Shown here: positions 47,146 through 55,344 of the stretch, one piece after another
How the letters are laid out: each line of letters begins with the position of its first letter
How positions within the stretch are numbered: the first letter of the stretch is position 1
DNA from: Pedobacter indicus
GTDB lineage: Bacteria > Bacteroidota > Bacteroidia > Sphingobacteriales > Sphingobacteriaceae
Reading direction: 5' to 3'
Assembly (NCBI RefSeq): GCF_003449035.1
Contig: NZ_QRGB01000001.1
Span: 2,604,001-2,668,000, forward strand
Length of the DNA: 64,000 bases
Position numbers and translations under genes: made by a program
Notes under the pieces: generated by a model
What the model saw: the letters and a program-made list of their open reading frames with translations, nothing else
Told to the model about the DNA's origin: nothing
Database searches by the model: none

Positions 47146-48456
47146 TTAGTTTGCTTTCTGCAAAACACTTACTTTAGGTACACGGAGCAGAAAAAGGAAC
47201 CCTAAGGCAAAGAAAATAGCAAGGAATAAAGCTGAGGTGCGGATATTGCCAGTTAATTCTTCAACGAAGCCAAACGTAAATAAACCTATTACAATCGCTA
47301 TTTTCTCTGTGACGTCATAAAAACTGAAAAATGAGGTGGTATCTTCTGTCTGCTCAGGGATGAGCTTTGAAAAGGTAGATCTTGAAATTGATTGCGTACC
47401 TCCCATAACTAGACCAACCAGGATCGCCAGTATATAAAACTGAACCTCATTATTGATAACGAATGCTGATAAGCATACAACAATCCATAAAAGGACAACA
47501 AGCATGAGAACTTTGATATTCCCAATGATACGTACCATCCAAGACATCAGATAAGCACCGGCAATTGCCACGAGCTGGATGGCTAAAATTGTGGCGATAA
47601 GCTTTGATGCACCTAAACCAAGCACCTTTTCACCAAATGCAGCAGAGACCAACATGATGGTTTGAACCCCCATCGCATAAAAGAAAAAGGCCGTAAGAAA
47701 ACGCTTGAGAACTGGTATGTTTTTAATCGATATCCAAACCTTCTTCAGTTCGATAAAACCCTTTTTTAAAACCTCCCTTTTGAAGTCCTTTTGATGCTTC
47801 AATGAATCCGGGAGCACACGAAATGATACCTGAGAAAACAATACCCACCATAAGCCCACAAGAAGAAAAGAAAATCTTGCAGGAAAGGACCCATCGGTTA
47901 TACCGAACCATTCTGGTTTTATTACAAATATAAAGCAGATAATTTGAAGGATAACGCTACCAACATAGCCATAAGCAAAGCCCTTTGCACTAACCTGGTC
48001 TTGCTTGTCAACTGTAGCGATCTCAGGCAAATAGGAATTATTAAACAACACGCCCCCTATATAACCCATCGCCGCCAAAGAAGAGCAGATTATTCCCAGC
48101 TCTAAGGTTTCATACTTAAAAAAATACAAAGCCATACAAGCAAAAGCACCCAGGTACGTAAACAGCTTCATCAATTGTTTCCGATTGCCCCGGTAATCTG
48201 CAATCGACGACAAAACAGGTAGTATCAGAACCATTATTAAATAGGAAAAAGCAAGAGAATAATTAGCTAGTGCAGTATTGATGAAAGTGAAACCAAAAAA
48301 ATCAACGCGATCACCATGTTCCTCGGTGGTCGTGATAATCGTATAGTATGCTGGGAATATGGTTGACGTAATGACTAAATTGTACGCAGAATTGGCCCAA
48401 TCGAACATTGCCCACCCGCGGATTATCGACTTATTATTTTTGGTAATACTTTCCAT
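47146..48456 (-). CDS. UMF1-type MFS transporter
   Basis: 436-residue membrane protein with 12 helices, similar to the UMF1/Atg22-like branch of the major facilitator superfamily. The N-terminal WAMFDWANSAYNLVITST and the motif SIADYRGNRKQLMK are typical, as is GGTQSISRSTFSKLIPE at about residue 360. Substrate unknown; amino acids or peptides are suggested for the family. The start overlaps the end of recQ by 23 bases, so both are probably cotranscribed. Confidence 0.8.
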   Translation of the reverse strand: MESITKNNKSIIRGWAMFDWANSAYNLVITSTIFPAYYTIITTTEEHGDRVDFFGFTFINTALANYSLAFSYLIMVLILPVLSSIADYRGNRKQLMKLFTYLGAFACMALYFFKYETLELGIICSSLAAMGYIGGVLFNNSYLPEIATVDKQDQVSAKGFAYGYVGSVILQIICFIFVIKPEWFGITDGSFPARFSFLLVGLWWVLFSQVSFRVLPDSLKHQKDFKREVLKKGFIELKKVWISIKNIPVLKRFLTAFFFYAMGVQTIMLVSAAFGEKVLGLGASKLIATILAIQLVAIAGAYLMSWMVRIIGNIKVLMLVVLLWIVVCLSAFVINNEVQFYILAILVGLVMGGTQSISRSTFSKLIPEQTEDTTSFFSFYDVTEKIAIVIGLFTFGFVEELTGNIRTSALFLAIFFALGFLFLLRVPKVSVLQKAN

Positions 48457-50335
48457 TATTCATTTTAATTTCGCCAGAGTCGATAAGCTTACGTATAAAA
48501 CTAAGTTTCATTTTATCACTGCCATTATCTATTCCGTCAACCAGTTCATCGAGTGTCAAAGGTCCATCTACCAGCAAATTGGTTATCTCGACATATATTT
48601 TTCCTTCTAGCTCTTCATCGCTTCCGGCACTCCGCTTCAAAATACATACATCGCAGATCAGACAATCGGGAGATTCGTTTTCTCCAAAGTAAGCCAACAA
48701 TTTCCGACTCCGACATTCGTCATTCTCTAAGTAGTTGAATATTGATTTCAATTGTGCTTCAGCGATACGCTTCCTCTCTACAATATACTGATGATCAACC
48801 GTTAAGTGTTTTGTATCACTTCTGGGACGCATAAATTGAAGCTGTGGACTATCTTTTTGTTTTAAATAGGTCAGCACGCCCATATCATTCATTTTCTGCA
48901 AAAGAGAATAGACATGTTGAGTCGGAAGGTTCAGTTTTCGTGCAACATCTGTCTCTCTTATATCAACAAAGTGATCAAATGCAGGACCATAAGTACGGAG
49001 GATAAACTTAATAACCGAATCCATATTGGCATGTTCAACCTGAAAGCGATATAATTCGGTTGCGTCCACTTCGAAACTGATCCTAGAAGGCAGAAACACA
49101 TTTTCGGTGACGCTGATCCATTCATCTCGTTCCAGAAACTTCAATGACGCCATCGTTTTAATAACATTGAGCGTGTAACGCTTACAAAAGTCTCCGATAT
49201 CAAAATCAAAAACGACACCCTCGCCTGCCCCATAGGCTAATTGAAAATAATTACCTAATTGAAAATAGGTTTGAGCAACTTCTTGGACACTGGGAAAACT
49301 TTGTTCAAAATTAGATTTCAGCTTCAATTTGTCGGCTTCATTGTAAAGGAGTACGGCGTAAGACTTATTTCCATCTCGCCCCGCTCGTCCGGCTTCTTGA
49401 AAATAGGCTTCAAGATGTTCGGGTATATCTAGATGTACTACCAAGCGTACATTAGGCTTATCAATTCCCATCCCGAAGGCATTTGTAGAGACGATAATTT
49501 GAGTCTCATTTTTCATCCAAGCATCTTGTTTCCGGTTCCTTTCATTCGTGCCTAACCCTGCATGATAATAGTCGGCATTGATGCCGTTCATAATCAAAAA
49601 TCTGGCAATCTCTTTGGTTTCACGGCGACTTCGAACATAGACAATCCCAGAGCCCGGCGTACGATTAATAATCCTTAGCAAGCGTTGCATCTTGTTTTCC
49701 TCAAACAGAGCCATATATGCCAAGTTATCACGAAAAAAACTCCTCTTAAGCACATGGCTATGCTGAGGGTCGAAGTCGAGCTTTTCTTGAATATCTTCGA
49801 CAACTCTTTCAACAGCCGTCGCCGTCAGTGCAAGTACAGGAACTCCCGGATGCAATGTCCTTAAGATTTTTATATCAAGATAAGCAGGACGGAAATCATA
49901 GCCCCACTGTGAAATACAGTGTGCCTCGTCGATAGCAAACAAAGATATGTTCATATGCTTGATACGCTCCTGAACAAGTTCATTTCGCAGTCTTTCAGGA
50001 GACAGGTACAGGAACTTGATATCGCCGAAAATGCAGTTATCTAGCGCTATATCGACTTCCTTCTTACCCATACCGGAAAAGATAGCGATCGCTTTGATGC
50101 CTTTTGCTTTCAGGCTTTCAACTTGATCTTTCATCAACGCTATTAACGGGCTGACTACAATACATATTCCAGGTCGGATAAGTGTAGGCACTTGAAAACA
50201 AATGGATTTACCACCTCCGGTGGGCATCAACGCCAGCGTATCCCTCCCTTCAATTACTGAATTAATGACGTCCTCTTGAAGTGGACGAAAAGAGGAATAC
50301 CCCCAATGTTTCTGTAAAACCTCATGAATGGTCAT
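48434..50335 (-). CDS. recQ: ATP-dependent DNA helicase RecQ
   Basis: 633-residue 3'-5' DNA helicase. Walker A is PTGGGKS (residues 38-44), the DEAH box is Asp136-His139, motif VI is QEAGRAGRDG, and the RecQ-C-terminal zinc site is at CRSRKLLAYFGE and CLICDVC (about residues 513-540), followed by a winged-helix domain. The HRDC domain of full-length RecQ (about 730 residues) seems missing, as is common for the shorter RecQ copy of Bacteroidota. ComEC lies next to it with a 24-bp gap. It may act in recombination after DNA uptake; this is inferred. Confidence 0.93.
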   Translation of the reverse strand: MTIHEVLQKHWGYSSFRPLQEDVINSVIEGRDTLALMPTGGGKSICFQVPTLIRPGICIVVSPLIALMKDQVESLKAKGIKAIAIFSGMGKKEVDIALDNCIFGDIKFLYLSPERLRNELVQERIKHMNISLFAIDEAHCISQWGYDFRPAYLDIKILRTLHPGVPVLALTATAVERVVEDIQEKLDFDPQHSHVLKRSFFRDNLAYMALFEENKMQRLLRIINRTPGSGIVYVRSRRETKEIARFLIMNGINADYYHAGLGTNERNRKQDAWMKNETQIIVSTNAFGMGIDKPNVRLVVHLDIPEHLEAYFQEAGRAGRDGNKSYAVLLYNEADKLKLKSNFEQSFPSVQEVAQTYFQLGNYFQLAYGAGEGVVFDFDIGDFCKRYTLNVIKTMASLKFLERDEWISVTENVFLPSRISFEVDATELYRFQVEHANMDSVIKFILRTYGPAFDHFVDIRETDVARKLNLPTQHVYSLLQKMNDMGVLTYLKQKDSPQLQFMRPRSDTKHLTVDHQYIVERKRIAEAQLKSIFNYLENDECRSRKLLAYFGENESPDCLICDVCILKRSAGSDEELEGKIYVEITNLLVDGPLTLDELVDGIDNGSDKMKLSFIRKLIDSGEIKMNNGKYYQK

Positions 50336-50359: not shown

Positions 50360-52465
50360 TCACCAAACATAGTGAAAATTATCCTTTAGAACATACACGG
50401 GAATCTTCATTTTTTCAGCCTCGACTTTCATCTTTTGGATATACCACCATGCATTGCTTCCATCTAAAATCATCTGATCGAACGTCATAATGTCTTGCAT
50501 TTCACTTATACTGTGCAGTGAATTGTTTTTTACAATGAAAAGGTCTACAGCAATGTTACCTTGCAACTCCATCGGGCGATCGAAGACAAACAGGGTCTTG
50601 TTTCCCAACTGAATAAAATGTTCGTAAACCAAAAAATCCTCGTTTAGAAACGTATCAACATGATGGATAAAATTAGGAGGTTTAGCCAACGCTAAAAAAC
50701 TTGGCTTAACTGAATATTCGAAAGTCGAATCATGCTCGTCTTTAAAGTTCGTATACAAATAGGCGTTCTCCCTTTGGAATATACCTATCGCAGTATTCTT
50801 GCCCACATTATAAATCTTAATTTGGTTAAGGTGTCTTTCTGAATACTTTTGCAACGATCGATCTAGTCCTAAGAGAATCAAACCGATAAATATTAAATAG
50901 ATTGCCGTTTTCTTTTTATGAAAAACGAAAAAACTTGCGGCTAAAACGACTAGATACAAGACCAAAAAATGCCAGGATTCAGTCCACCGAAGATTTAAAC
51001 TGGAATATGGCAACTCCCCAAAATAGACCAAGACTTCTTTTGTGATTTTAATAGTTGCTTCAAGAAATTGAGCCAGAAACAGCTGAAGCCCGCCTGATGG
51101 TAAAAGAAGAACGAGGATGCCGATATATAGAATTAAGGTAGCTGGCAATAGAATAAAAAGGTTTGCTGGCAAAAAATAAACAGGAAAAAAATAAAAATAA
51201 TAAGTGACTAAAGGAAAGGTTGCTAGTTGCGCGGCAAGAGAAATTGAGATATATGACCACAACGTTTTAAGTATTGGATTGGAGAAACCCGGTGCTAAAT
51301 AAAACTTGGGGTAAAAATACACGATACCAAGTACAGACAAATACGAAAGTTGAAAACCAATATCTGATAAGAACCGCGGATTATACATTAAAAGAATAAA
51401 TGCTGAAAAAGCGATGGTGTTGTATATTTGGTTTTGCCGAACCATACTCAGTGCTAAAATCCCTAAGCTAAGCATAATGGAGGCTCGGAGCACCGAAGGT
51501 GATAAGCCCGTTATAAGTGCATACAGCCAAATTAACGCAATGAGTATAACAGCCTTTAGCCAGATCCATTTAGACTTTCTATTCCAAAGCAATAAGAATG
51601 AAAACACGGAAAATATGATGCCTACGTGAAGGCCTGAAACAGAGAGAACGTGGATCGTTCCAGTTGTCGAAAAGGTATTCAATAAATCACGATCCAAATC
51701 GCTACGGTAACCTAACACGAGTGTTGATGCAATAGCATGTACATCCTTTTCAACCAGGATGCTTTCTAACTTCGCTACCATATTTTCCCTCAGACCAAGA
51801 GCAAAATCAATTAAATCATCACCTTGATTTTCACCAATCTTTTTTACTTGTTTATGTGTTAAATAACTTTGATGCCAGATTTCCCGACCGGCCATGTACT
51901 GTTTATAATTGAATTCATTTGGATTAAAACTGGGCTTGAGTTCATTGAAGTCAGCTTCAATAAGCAGTTGATCGCCATAATAGTAGATTTGCTCCAGATC
52001 ATTTAAAGAATCACGTTGGATGCTGAGTAAAAGCCTCCCCTTGCGTGCTGAGATCAGACTGTCAGTGACGGAATGTGTGACTTGTACTGGGAAGCGAATG
52101 GTTTTTTCTGTAATTCTAGGTTCATCGGCAACAAAACCTATAAGTGCATCCGTCGGATCGTGGCTAAAGTGACCGCGTTGAATCAACGGGTCTGGATGCC
52201 ACATACGCGCCCAACCCAGTGCAAATAAGAAAATATAAAATAGAACACTCAGCGTCGGATAATTTCTAAACTTACGGAGCTTAGTTATACCGATCATCAA
52301 GAAAAAAAGAGCGATTGATAAGCCAGCTATTATACAAACTAAATAGAAAACATGAACTTGAGGTCGAATCCAATGCCCCATACCTATCCCTGCAATCAAT
52401 GCAAAAACAAATCGGACAAAAGGCCATGCAGCAAAATTGATATTGTTTTCTTTCAACCCTTGCAT
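50360..52465 (-). CDS. comEC: ComEC/Rec2 competence DNA channel
   Basis: 701-residue inner-membrane protein of the ComEC/Rec2 family, the channel for single-stranded DNA in natural transformation. It has an N-terminal DUF4131 region with beta-rich domain (about 30-200) and a helical Competence domain whose signature GTIHVLSVSGLHVGIIF lies near residues 260-276, and ITGLSPSVLRASIMLSLG. The C-terminal metallo-beta-lactamase domain of many ComEC proteins is not evident; only a short domain follows the last helices (about 535-701). Overlap and gaps of 3 and 24 bp connect it to the HhH-barrel and recQ genes. Confidence 0.9.
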   Translation of the reverse strand: MQGLKENNINFAAWPFVRFVFALIAGIGMGHWIRPQVHVFYLVCIIAGLSIALFFLMIGITKLRKFRNYPTLSVLFYIFLFALGWARMWHPDPLIQRGHFSHDPTDALIGFVADEPRITEKTIRFPVQVTHSVTDSLISARKGRLLLSIQRDSLNDLEQIYYYGDQLLIEADFNELKPSFNPNEFNYKQYMAGREIWHQSYLTHKQVKKIGENQGDDLIDFALGLRENMVAKLESILVEKDVHAIASTLVLGYRSDLDRDLLNTFSTTGTIHVLSVSGLHVGIIFSVFSFLLLWNRKSKWIWLKAVILIALIWLYALITGLSPSVLRASIMLSLGILALSMVRQNQIYNTIAFSAFILLMYNPRFLSDIGFQLSYLSVLGIVYFYPKFYLAPGFSNPILKTLWSYISISLAAQLATFPLVTYYFYFFPVYFLPANLFILLPATLILYIGILVLLLPSGGLQLFLAQFLEATIKITKEVLVYFGELPYSSLNLRWTESWHFLVLYLVVLAASFFVFHKKKTAIYLIFIGLILLGLDRSLQKYSERHLNQIKIYNVGKNTAIGIFQRENAYLYTNFKDEHDSTFEYSVKPSFLALAKPPNFIHHVDTFLNEDFLVYEHFIQLGNKTLFVFDRPMELQGNIAVDLFIVKNNSLHSISEMQDIMTFDQMILDGSNAWWYIQKMKVEAEKMKIPVYVLKDNFHYVW

Positions 52466-52468
52466 TAT

Positions 52469-54514
52469 CTAAATTTGAAAACGTAGTTGTAATCGGATAT
52501 CGGAGCGAGTGCGGCCTTCTATATAATTAAGACCTGAACCGATCCCCTCGTCTTTATATAGTGAACTCGCATACCGCGCCCAAAAATTGATCTTACGACT
52601 CAGACGGTAGCGCAGATTGATATAAAAACGAAGACCCTCACCATAGTAAGGAATTGAAGAATGTGCGTATAAAACATTGTTCTCGAAGACATAGTGCCTT
52701 GAATTGTAACTGTCTGTTTTAAACGCAGCCAAACGAACGTTCCCACTAACGGGATTTCCCATGGGCTTATAAATCAAGTCATGATAGAAGAGCCAACCGC
52801 TTTCGGTACCACTATTCCCTTTTTTATAAGTAATCAGTTCTGCTCGATTTCGAAAGCTTATATTGTCGTTAACTTTATAGCTTCCCTGGAGCCGTATTTG
52901 GTGACGAACTACATTGGCTATCTCGTTCACCACGTTTGTGCTGGATAAATTTTCTTGTTTGTTCCGATAACGATAGCGGATGGAAAATATATTTGACCGA
53001 ATCGGAGCATATGATATTTGAGTAAATAGATCGTAACCATCTGAAGGTGCATCTACCCGATACTTAATCCAGGGGAATCTAAAATAGTCAGCATAAGCCA
53101 CCCACTCTACTCTGCGATTGGGATTCCATATTAATCCGGAATAAAATCCGTTTTCATTTGTAGCATTTGTGTTTTCGGAAAATGGACTGCTCAAAAACCC
53201 ATGAAAGTCTTTTTGGTAATTTCGATAGAGAGCCACAAAGGATAACTGATCTGAGAGGCCAGCAATAGCACCATTTAAAAAACCAAAACTGCGATATGAG
53301 TTTGCGGCTCCCTCACCAAATAGGTAAAGATTTTTATATGTATACTGGTAGTAGATGCTGGCACTTTCCAGCGAGCGGCCACGGAAGCTGAATTGATTGT
53401 ATAATTGTTCATTAGGTGAACGAGGCTTGTTAAAATTAGTGCTTAAAAAAGTTCCTCCAATATTTAAATGAGATGAGCTATACTTCATGTTAGCTCCGTA
53501 AATAAATTGATTGACAGACTCTCTGTTTTTTATTTCCGCCGGTGTCCGATGATATCCTGATAAATTAAGGGAACTGAACGCACTTGAATCACTTGTCAAG
53601 GTTCCATCAAGAGACCGATAAGAAACGAAAGGAGAAAGCTCGATCTTACCAAACTGCAATGTCGTCGCCAAGCCACGTAAGTAATCTGCCTCATTGGTCG
53701 ATGTATGAGGTCTAATGCCTGTCCCATTCCGAGCGACATGATGTACGAGAGCGCCTTTTCCAAAGCTGTAGGAGTTCCAAATATTCAATCCCTGTCCAAA
53801 AGCTAATGAATAATCACCGATTACGAGCTTCTTTAAATATCCGACATCCTGAATGAGAATACTTCCAGAATAGTAATCGAATCCCCGACTTTGAGTACCT
53901 GTGAAAAACTCTTCGCCAGGATCTTTCTCCATATTGACAGCAAGTTGAAATTTGTTATTGATCCGAAACCGGTACCTCAACAATAAATGATCGGGCGTAC
54001 CTAGGTATCTAGACCTATCCTCATCTTTGATAGAATACCCTCTCTGTGTTTCAACGACCCTTCCATAGCGAAGCATTAAATCATGTTTTTTTTTTGCTGA
54101 ATTTGAACGTAACCGCTTTTTTTCTGTCGATATTCGAATAAACGGCAGAAGCCATTGCCGACTGATCTCATCTAGAGAACTGATCGACTGTAATTCGTAA
54201 ATAGAAACGAAGTTTCCACTTTCATTCCGATGATCTAAAATTTCTTGAATTTGAAGATCTGAAAGAAAGATGAGATTCTTCAGGTCTTCATAACTAGCCG
54301 TGTTTAAGTCAATTGGATTTCTAAGGTAATAATTGAGCAATTCTTCTATTTCAGAAAGATCCAGCTCACTTTCTTCGTCGGTTGTTATGCTTTCCAATAG
54401 ATTTTCAAAAATCGAAAGGTTAATTTGTTGAGTATCGCGATCTTCTTGCGCATAGGAAAAAGCAGTGCAACAACAGATGGTTATCGAGAGGAAAAAAAAG
54501 CTTCTGAAAAACAT
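52469..54514 (-). CDS. Helix-hairpin-helix protein with a predicted outer-membrane barrel
   Basis: 681-residue exported protein. A signal peptide (residues 1-22) and an acidic linker precede a ComEA-like helix-hairpin-helix region (PIDLNTASYEDLKNL to SGNFVSIYELQSI, about residues 67-112), the fold by which ComEA grips DNA. About 530 residues of alternating beta-strands with many Tyr and Phe follow, ending in RLQLRFQI, an aromatic/hydrophobic tail typical of outer-membrane barrels. An in-frame TTG lies 3 codons upstream, but the ATG at 54514 opens the signal peptide. It lies 3 bases from comEC. A role in DNA uptake is inferred. Confidence 0.75.
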   Translation of the reverse strand: MFFRSFFFLSITICCCTAFSYAQEDRDTQQINLSIFENLLESITTDEESELDLSEIEELLNYYLRNPIDLNTASYEDLKNLIFLSDLQIQEILDHRNESGNFVSIYELQSISSLDEISRQWLLPFIRISTEKKRLRSNSAKKKHDLMLRYGRVVETQRGYSIKDEDRSRYLGTPDHLLLRYRFRINNKFQLAVNMEKDPGEEFFTGTQSRGFDYYSGSILIQDVGYLKKLVIGDYSLAFGQGLNIWNSYSFGKGALVHHVARNGTGIRPHTSTNEADYLRGLATTLQFGKIELSPFVSYRSLDGTLTSDSSAFSSLNLSGYHRTPAEIKNRESVNQFIYGANMKYSSSHLNIGGTFLSTNFNKPRSPNEQLYNQFSFRGRSLESASIYYQYTYKNLYLFGEGAANSYRSFGFLNGAIAGLSDQLSFVALYRNYQKDFHGFLSSPFSENTNATNENGFYSGLIWNPNRRVEWVAYADYFRFPWIKYRVDAPSDGYDLFTQISYAPIRSNIFSIRYRYRNKQENLSSTNVVNEIANVVRHQIRLQGSYKVNDNISFRNRAELITYKKGNSGTESGWLFYHDLIYKPMGNPVSGNVRLAAFKTDSYNSRHYVFENNVLYAHSSIPYYGEGLRFYINLRYRLSRKINFWARYASSLYKDEGIGSGLNYIEGRTRSDIRLQLRFQI

Positions 54515-54525
54515 GGGGATCAAGA

Positions 54526-55344
54526 CTAAAATCTATAATCAATTGATATTTGAGGAGAATAACCTAATTGTGGATGATGAGACGTCGCGATGTCGAAATT
54601 GAACTTTTTAGTTATAACCCCCACCCCTACGTATTGCATAAATGGATTTACAGATATACCGCCGCGTACGGCAAGCCAGCTCATCGGTAAATATTCTGTA
54701 CCAAATGCAAAATCGACTTGTTCGGAATAAGATATCTCGGTCAAAAGGACTACCTGCTGTGTGAATATGTATGATGATCCTAGGCGAAGATGAATGGGTT
54801 GAGAGCTCGGGTTATTTGCAGTTGTCGTCAACCGAAGGTGGCTGGCACTGAGCCCTATGCTTGCCAACTGGCTTAAGGCATACTGTGCACCTACATCGAA
54901 AGAAAAATGATTGCGTTGTAGATCCGTCGCAAGATTTATTAGATGATAATTTGTAGATAATCCGACGGCAAAATCTTTAGACAATGACTTTGCAAGGGTA
55001 AGTCCAGTACTCAATGTCTGGTAAAAATCTTTAAACCGATAATAGTGAACGTAGGTTCCAAAATTAAGGAAACCAGCAGGATAGGCTATTTTACCGGTTA
55101 AACTCTGGGTGTTAGTACTAAAAAAATACTCGCTATAAAGCGCACTCAATACAGGTCGTTCTATGCTTGCAATACCAGCAGGGTTATAACCAATACTGTG
55201 CACACCTTTCGTGACACCTCCGATATTTCCGAGACCCAAGTTTTTCGTGGCAGGAAGAGTCTGCCCCTTGGTTTCAATTGCGCCAAACATCAACAATAAA
55301 ACAAAAACCCTCATCAGTAGACGACGAGCATCATGATCTATCAT
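54526..55344 (-). CDS. PorV/PorQ-like outer-membrane protein
   Basis: 272-residue exported protein of the PorV/PorQ (FadL-fold) type. The N-terminal signature after the signal peptide, GLGNIGGVTKGVHSIGYNPAGIA (about residues 37-59), is the Bacteroidota PorV-type motif, and a barrel of amphipathic strands ends in ISIDYRF. PorV and PorQ serve the type IX secretion system in other species; here it lies beside the HhH barrel and comEC genes, so it may be their partner instead. An in-frame ATG at 55314 would start directly at the signal peptide (MRVFVLLLMFG) and may be the real start. Confidence 0.72.
   Translation of the reverse strand: MIDHDARRLLMRVFVLLLMFGAIETKGQTLPATKNLGLGNIGGVTKGVHSIGYNPAGIASIERPVLSALYSEYFFSTNTQSLTGKIAYPAGFLNFGTYVHYYRFKDFYQTLSTGLTLAKSLSKDFAVGLSTNYHLINLATDLQRNHFSFDVGAQYALSQLASIGLSASHLRLTTTANNPSSQPIHLRLGSSYIFTQQVVLLTEISYSEQVDFAFGTEYLPMSWLAVRGGISVNPFMQYVGVGVITKKFNFDIATSHHPQLGYSPQISIDYRF

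Follow-up and report, generated by a model that had tools for sequence, protein, structure and literature searches.

How transforming DNA crosses the outer membrane is an open question in the Bacteroidota, a dominant phylum of gut and soil. Only one candidate route in the phylum, that of Riemerella anatipestifer, has genetic support. In other bacteria a type IV pilus and its secretin PilQ bring DNA through the outer membrane and on to ComEC, the task presumed here for the two proteins described below. The genome studied here (G000, 3.47 Mb) contains no match to the secretin domain PF00263, nor do most of its relatives (11 of 60 have one). A 64,000-nucleotide stretch of this genome (the window) encodes ComEC next to two putative outer-membrane proteins, a barrel with a helix-hairpin-helix (HhH) domain, hereafter HhH-barrel, and a PorV-like protein. 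Do these proteins provide the missing passage? We propose, with a probability of about 0.6, that they form an outer-membrane module for the uptake of transforming DNA in Bacteroidota without a pilus secretin. No earlier description of the HhH-barrel was found in the open-access literature searched.

The gene run and its two predicted barrels

The genes for the PorV-like protein, the HhH-barrel, ComEC, and RecQ form a single tight run, separated by gaps of 11, 3, and 24 bases (Table 1). The initial annotation had described an HhH protein with a signal peptide 3 bases upstream of comEC, preceded by a PorV-like gene, with recQ after comEC. The open reading frames, their coordinates, and their order all agree with that description. 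An alternative TTG start at 54523 would extend the HhH-barrel by three residues. The nearest named homologues of this protein are from Parapedobacter and share 46% identity, which marks the genome as Sphingobacteriaceae-like.

Table 1. Features of the comEC gene run, in positions of the window
Feature	Positions	Strand	Basis
PorV-like gene, 261 aa counted from inner ATG at 55311	54526-55344	minus	ORF
HhH-barrel gene, 681 aa from ATG	52469-54514	minus	ORF
Degenerate helix-hairpin-helix pair, residues 54-127	54134-54355	minus	HHH_3, AlphaFold2, conservation, ComEA structure profile matches
Predicted 24-stranded beta-barrel, residues 142-680	52475-54091	minus	AlphaFold2 strand list, conservation, FimD/PapC usher alignment
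comEC, 701 aa, DUF4131 and Competence domains	50360-52465	minus	Pfam, ORF
recQ, end gene of the tight run	48434-50335	minus	ORF, Pfam

The AlphaFold2 model of the HhH-barrel, built with 70 homologues, has a pLDDT of 91.2 and a pTM of 0.87. A signal helix is followed by more helices up to residue 125 and then by the 24 long strands of a membrane barrel, as had been expected of a structure prediction. The strand count is even, and short turns lie on the side of both termini with long loops on the opposite side. As in outer-membrane barrels, this alternation points to periplasmic ends and outer loops, and the HhH domain is predicted to sit on the periplasmic side. Together with signal peptide and barrel, most homologues possess the aromatic C-terminal beta-signal of outer-membrane proteins, mostly ending in F; the last residues of the window protein are RFQI.

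The fold class is clear from the model. The structural neighbours are general barrels, and structure searches returned no closely related solved protein among them. In Foldseek, the top-ranked match is a chain of the Mtr complex. The FimD/PapC ushers align across residues 139-681 (Z 13-14, 360-376 residues, about 4 Å). They equal the HhH-barrel in strand number and the alignment spans the whole barrel, but no sequence or accessory domain is common to both, and the likeness is one of size and fold class only.

The outer loops of such barrels are usually the variable part. In the HhH-barrel family, by contrast, mean conservation is 0.58 in the outer loops, 0.56 in the strands, and 0.43 in the periplasmic turns, and 31 near-invariant positions fall in the predicted outer loops. 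The loops therefore probably fold into a gate or make a conserved entry site. Near-invariant charged residues are also found in the strands (K197, R280, E401, R431, E454, D476, R541, E559, D579, R594, and R629).

The PorV-like protein matches the NCBIfam model NF033709 (PorV_fam) with an E-value of 3.9e-9 and 36.5 bits. As this lies below the cut-off of 90, the protein is called PorV-like only. Its family profile matches PorV 6h3i_F (E 1.5e-8). The AlphaFold2 model (pLDDT 90.5) contains 14 strands, as do FadL-type barrels (PorV/PorQ, FadL superfamily), and superimposes on PorV 8gl6_F with a VIA Z of 30.4 over 252 residues at 2.4 Å. Z values are 26-30 against FadL and 25-26 against BamG. The model clearly has the PorV/FadL fold, which bears out the PorV-like barrel of the initial annotation.

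The PorV entries 6h3i and 8gl6 are part of the type 9 translocon, in which the partner of PorV is SprA. BamG is a FadL-family subunit in the Bacteroidota BAM complex (PMC12611786). The PorV-like protein shares with BamG and with the PorV of type IX secretion a FadL-type barrel of 14 strands and a gene position beside that of a larger barrel. The PorV-like protein is shorter, and its presumed partner is the HhH-barrel rather than SprA or BamA. Since PorV and BamG are both partners of larger machines, we infer by analogy that a complex of the PorV-like protein and the HhH-barrel is plausible. Such a complex would be another case of a FadL/PorV barrel partnering a larger outer-membrane machine.

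Gene order and distribution in Bacteroidota

Gene order was compared in 30 relatives, 24 from the window's family and 6 from other families, and in 80 named loci, partly from the same genomes. Of the 24 family loci, 23 have comEC after the HhH-barrel gene and 20 have the PorV-like gene before it. In the six loci from other families, the PorV-like gene precedes in all and comEC follows in none. Of the named loci, 58 have the PorV-like gene upstream and 46 have comEC downstream, without exception in the orientation of the HhH-barrel gene; for the 31 of other lineages among them, the counts are 30 and 0. This gene order is far beyond chance. The linkage to comEC proposed in the initial annotation is conserved in Sphingobacteriaceae-like loci and limited to them. 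In four Chitinophagales-type loci (L089, L104, L109, and L110), dprA lies a few genes from the pair in divergent orientation (PF02481 in L089, E 4.1e-79). The PorV-like/HhH-barrel pair is an old unit, whereas the comEC link belongs to one family and a weaker dprA link to another order.

A pair kept across the phylum without adjoining comEC could also be an outer-membrane transporter or secretion accessory that does not handle DNA, acting for example on polysaccharide, lipid, or T9SS cargo, and its place beside comEC would then be the historical chance of one family. Some FadL/PorV-type barrels do transport hydrophobic cargo, and others work for T9SS or BAM (PMC12611786). On the other hand, such a transporter does not account for the ComEA-type HhH domain or for dprA near the pair in another order, and the distribution of the barrel also bears on it.

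Homologues of the HhH-barrel were found by a profile scan of genome contigs; a single-sequence scan gave nothing. The profile matches 242 of 296 Bacteroidota genomes, 216 of them below 1e-20, so that roughly three in four sampled genomes match strongly. An apparent second HhH-barrel in locus L096 was rejected as a false match to a metal-transport ATPase. ComEC is present in 288 genomes, and the barrel is tied to it. Among the eight ComEC-less genomes, seven, all of one family, also lack the barrel, the exception being G310 (Fisher p 5e-4). The window's family was sampled with 201 genomes, and all six without ComEC are without the barrel. Three of these stand in genera that otherwise have the barrel (G029 in genus g5, G458 and G503 in g17), two belong to the small-genome genus g6, and one (G496) to g15; G032 (g8) is a further such loss. 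However, the two genes adjoin in this family, so one deletion could take both.

In family f57 of the phylum sample, ComEC is absent from 7 of 7 sampled genomes and none has a strong match to the HhH-barrel. This family seems to have given up the pathway.

HhH-barrel genes with stops or broken frames occur in four genomes (G479, G507, G357, and G486), and G507 also contains a ComEC fragment. Broken copies are expected of a dispensable trait, and these sequences suggest that the trait may decay recurrently.

Genus g15 of the window's family behaves differently from its relatives. ComEC is present in 42 of its 43 genomes and the HhH-barrel in none (examples are loci L165-L167). Thus, ComEC does not always depend on the barrel, a point in favour of a function unrelated to DNA. 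The three g15 genomes tested also lack the Riemerella-type barrel described below, and the CDF and NUDIX neighbours are retained in the genus. The genus may use a third outer-membrane route or employ ComEC otherwise.

A transposon screen in R. anatipestifer identified eight genes essential for transformation, namely comEC, dprA, comF, recA, a DUF1343 gene, and the genes for the HhH protein RS02645, RS04915, and RS04920 (PMC8459023). RA0C_RS04915 lies in the outer membrane and carries a carboxypeptidase-regulatory domain; RS04920, encoded next to it, is a DUF5689 protein (PMC8459023). Like the PorV-like/HhH-barrel pair, these two consist of a large outer-membrane barrel and a partner. Riemerella also resembles the window genome in having ComEC, DprA, and a triple-HhH protein in one organism. 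The pairs differ in that the Riemerella barrel carries the carboxypeptidase-regulatory domain and has the DUF5689 protein as its partner instead of a PorV-type barrel. A sequence relation between the two large barrels was rejected (hhalign probability 0.8%). Genome searches of the window genome detected neither DUF5689 nor an RS04915-type barrel.

A profile for the RS04915 type was based on a barrel/DUF5689 pair in genome G057 (L169:6010-10302), which was identified by domain and adjacency, that is, by layout and not by the Riemerella sequence; 45 of the 296 genomes match this profile strongly (<1e-90), and every one of them belongs to the window's class. The distribution of this type is complementary to that of the HhH-barrel. 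Among 73 genomes of the class, all with ComEC, 24 contain the HhH-barrel only, 39 the RS04915 type only, 6 both, and 4 neither (Fisher p 6e-10, with kinship ignored). On a ComEC tree, however, only three supported independent contrasts are found, and the sign test (p 0.5-1) is not significant. With so few contrasts, kinship explains much of the raw Fisher significance, and the alternation is not independent evidence. Both kinds occur within one family, f25, where G065, G090, G303, and G342 differ from G074, G168, G178, G201, and G319, and where G145 carries both barrels. An alternation of this kind would be expected from functional replacement, but kinship calls for serious caution in reading it.

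The comEC neighbourhoods of barrel-less families f22 and f26 and genus g15 contain no obvious replacement adjoining comEC. Where barrel-less genomes of this kind have the Riemerella-type pair, it is located away from comEC.

The joint loss with comEC and the alternation with the Riemerella-type barrel both speak against a pair that does not handle DNA, which we consider unlikely, though it is the strongest competitor of DNA uptake.

The HhH domain and the likely ComEA counterpart

The initial annotation regarded the HhH region of the barrel as the DNA receptor itself, in effect a ComEA with an outer-membrane barrel attached. Its assignment as a ComEA-like HhH domain is sound. Pfam HHH_3 matches residues 67-117 above the cut-off (E 2.6e-9), and the family profile matches the ComEA structures 8dss (E 1.4e-5) and 8dfk. 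The HhH-barrel and ComEA hence share a related HhH pair.

A role as receptor in place of ComEA is not supported. The curated comEA model TIGR01259 scores 23.8 bits against a cut-off of 152.35. The first hairpin reads F-L-S-P/D-L-Q where ComEA has G-V-G-P, and it is free of glycine in 70 of 70 homologues; the second hairpin has one glycine in 51 of 70. The glycine hairpins (GhG) by which ComEA contacts the DNA backbone are therefore lacking in the HhH-barrel. In addition, the HhH region contains 5 basic and 13 acidic residues, compared with 7 and 9 in a stretch of a Geobacillus ComEA. The loss of glycines and the acidic character make direct DNA binding by this domain doubtful, as judged from sequence. 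ComEA is, moreover, a small periplasmic or inner-membrane-anchored protein and not part of a barrel.

A separate 326-aa protein of the window genome (G000:C1 about 1242496-1243476; L147:1497-2477) has a single N-terminal membrane helix. It contains three HhH motifs, and in one of them the hairpin is the canonical GIGP. Its layout is like that of the Riemerella HhH protein RS02645 (PMC8459023). This inner-membrane protein is likely the better counterpart of ComEA, and its presence, along with the degenerate hairpins, renders a ComEA fused to the barrel improbable. Triple-HhH-like proteins of about 300 residues are also found in relatives, some of which lack ComEC.

A candidate passage for transforming DNA

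In the uptake model, transforming double-stranded DNA would enter the periplasm through the complex of the two barrels, in Bacteroidota that have no type IV pilus secretin. The 24-stranded barrel is predicted to present its conserved outer loops outside and its N-terminal HhH domain in the periplasm. The PorV-like barrel would bind the large barrel as PorV binds SprA and BamG binds BamA. DNA would cross the wide barrel, and the HhH domain would serve as a periplasmic gate or docking site. The separate triple-HhH protein of the inner membrane would then receive the DNA and feed it to the ComEC encoded directly downstream of the barrel.

Several observations are consistent with DNA uptake, including comEC directly downstream, dprA near the pair in four Chitinophagales loci, the absence of the barrel from nearly all ComEC-less genomes, its alternation with the Riemerella-type barrel, the lack of secretin, DUF5689, and RS04915-type barrel in the window genome, the two predicted folds, and the broken barrel copies. 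Others argue against it. Genus g15 keeps ComEC without the barrel, the pair does not adjoin comEC outside the family, and joint loss may reflect single deletions. The alternation loses significance after kinship is considered, the HhH hairpins are degenerate in an acidic region, and no transformable species with the HhH-barrel was identified in this analysis. That the complex moves DNA outward, as in the release of extracellular DNA, is very improbable: the pair is linked to the importer ComEC and lost together with it, and dprA lies nearby in some loci. In favour of outward movement, the barrel is about as large as those of export ushers, and sequence does not reveal direction.

The HhH-barrel is distinct from both ComEA and the Riemerella barrel; should the uptake model hold, it would work as the Riemerella barrel does. 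The distinct DNA-uptake machine of the initial annotation is plausible as a machine, but it would be the second of its kind, because the pilus-less route of RS04915/RS04920 was already published. The chances are evenly balanced that the pair is a second pilus-less channel, acting as the default transformation gate across most Bacteroidota and exchanged for the Riemerella type in Flavobacteriaceae-like lineages. The pair offers two deletable genes per species for testing DNA passage across the outer membrane.

The ComEC protein of the window contains DUF4131 and the Competence domain PF03772 (E 2.8e-52), the domain that marks ComEC/Rec2 proteins. Pfam detects no Lactamase_B in it, and the metallo-beta-lactamase nuclease site, which is not universal in ComEC, is absent. 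Other ComEC proteins that lack this domain have been described (PMC6299819). The metal-site motif SHxDxDH occurs in none of 60 ComECs of the window's class, though the C-terminal domain is kept; the enzyme that degrades one of the two DNA strands must therefore be elsewhere or absent. The recQ gene, directly after comEC here, lies near comEC in 13 of the 80 named loci.
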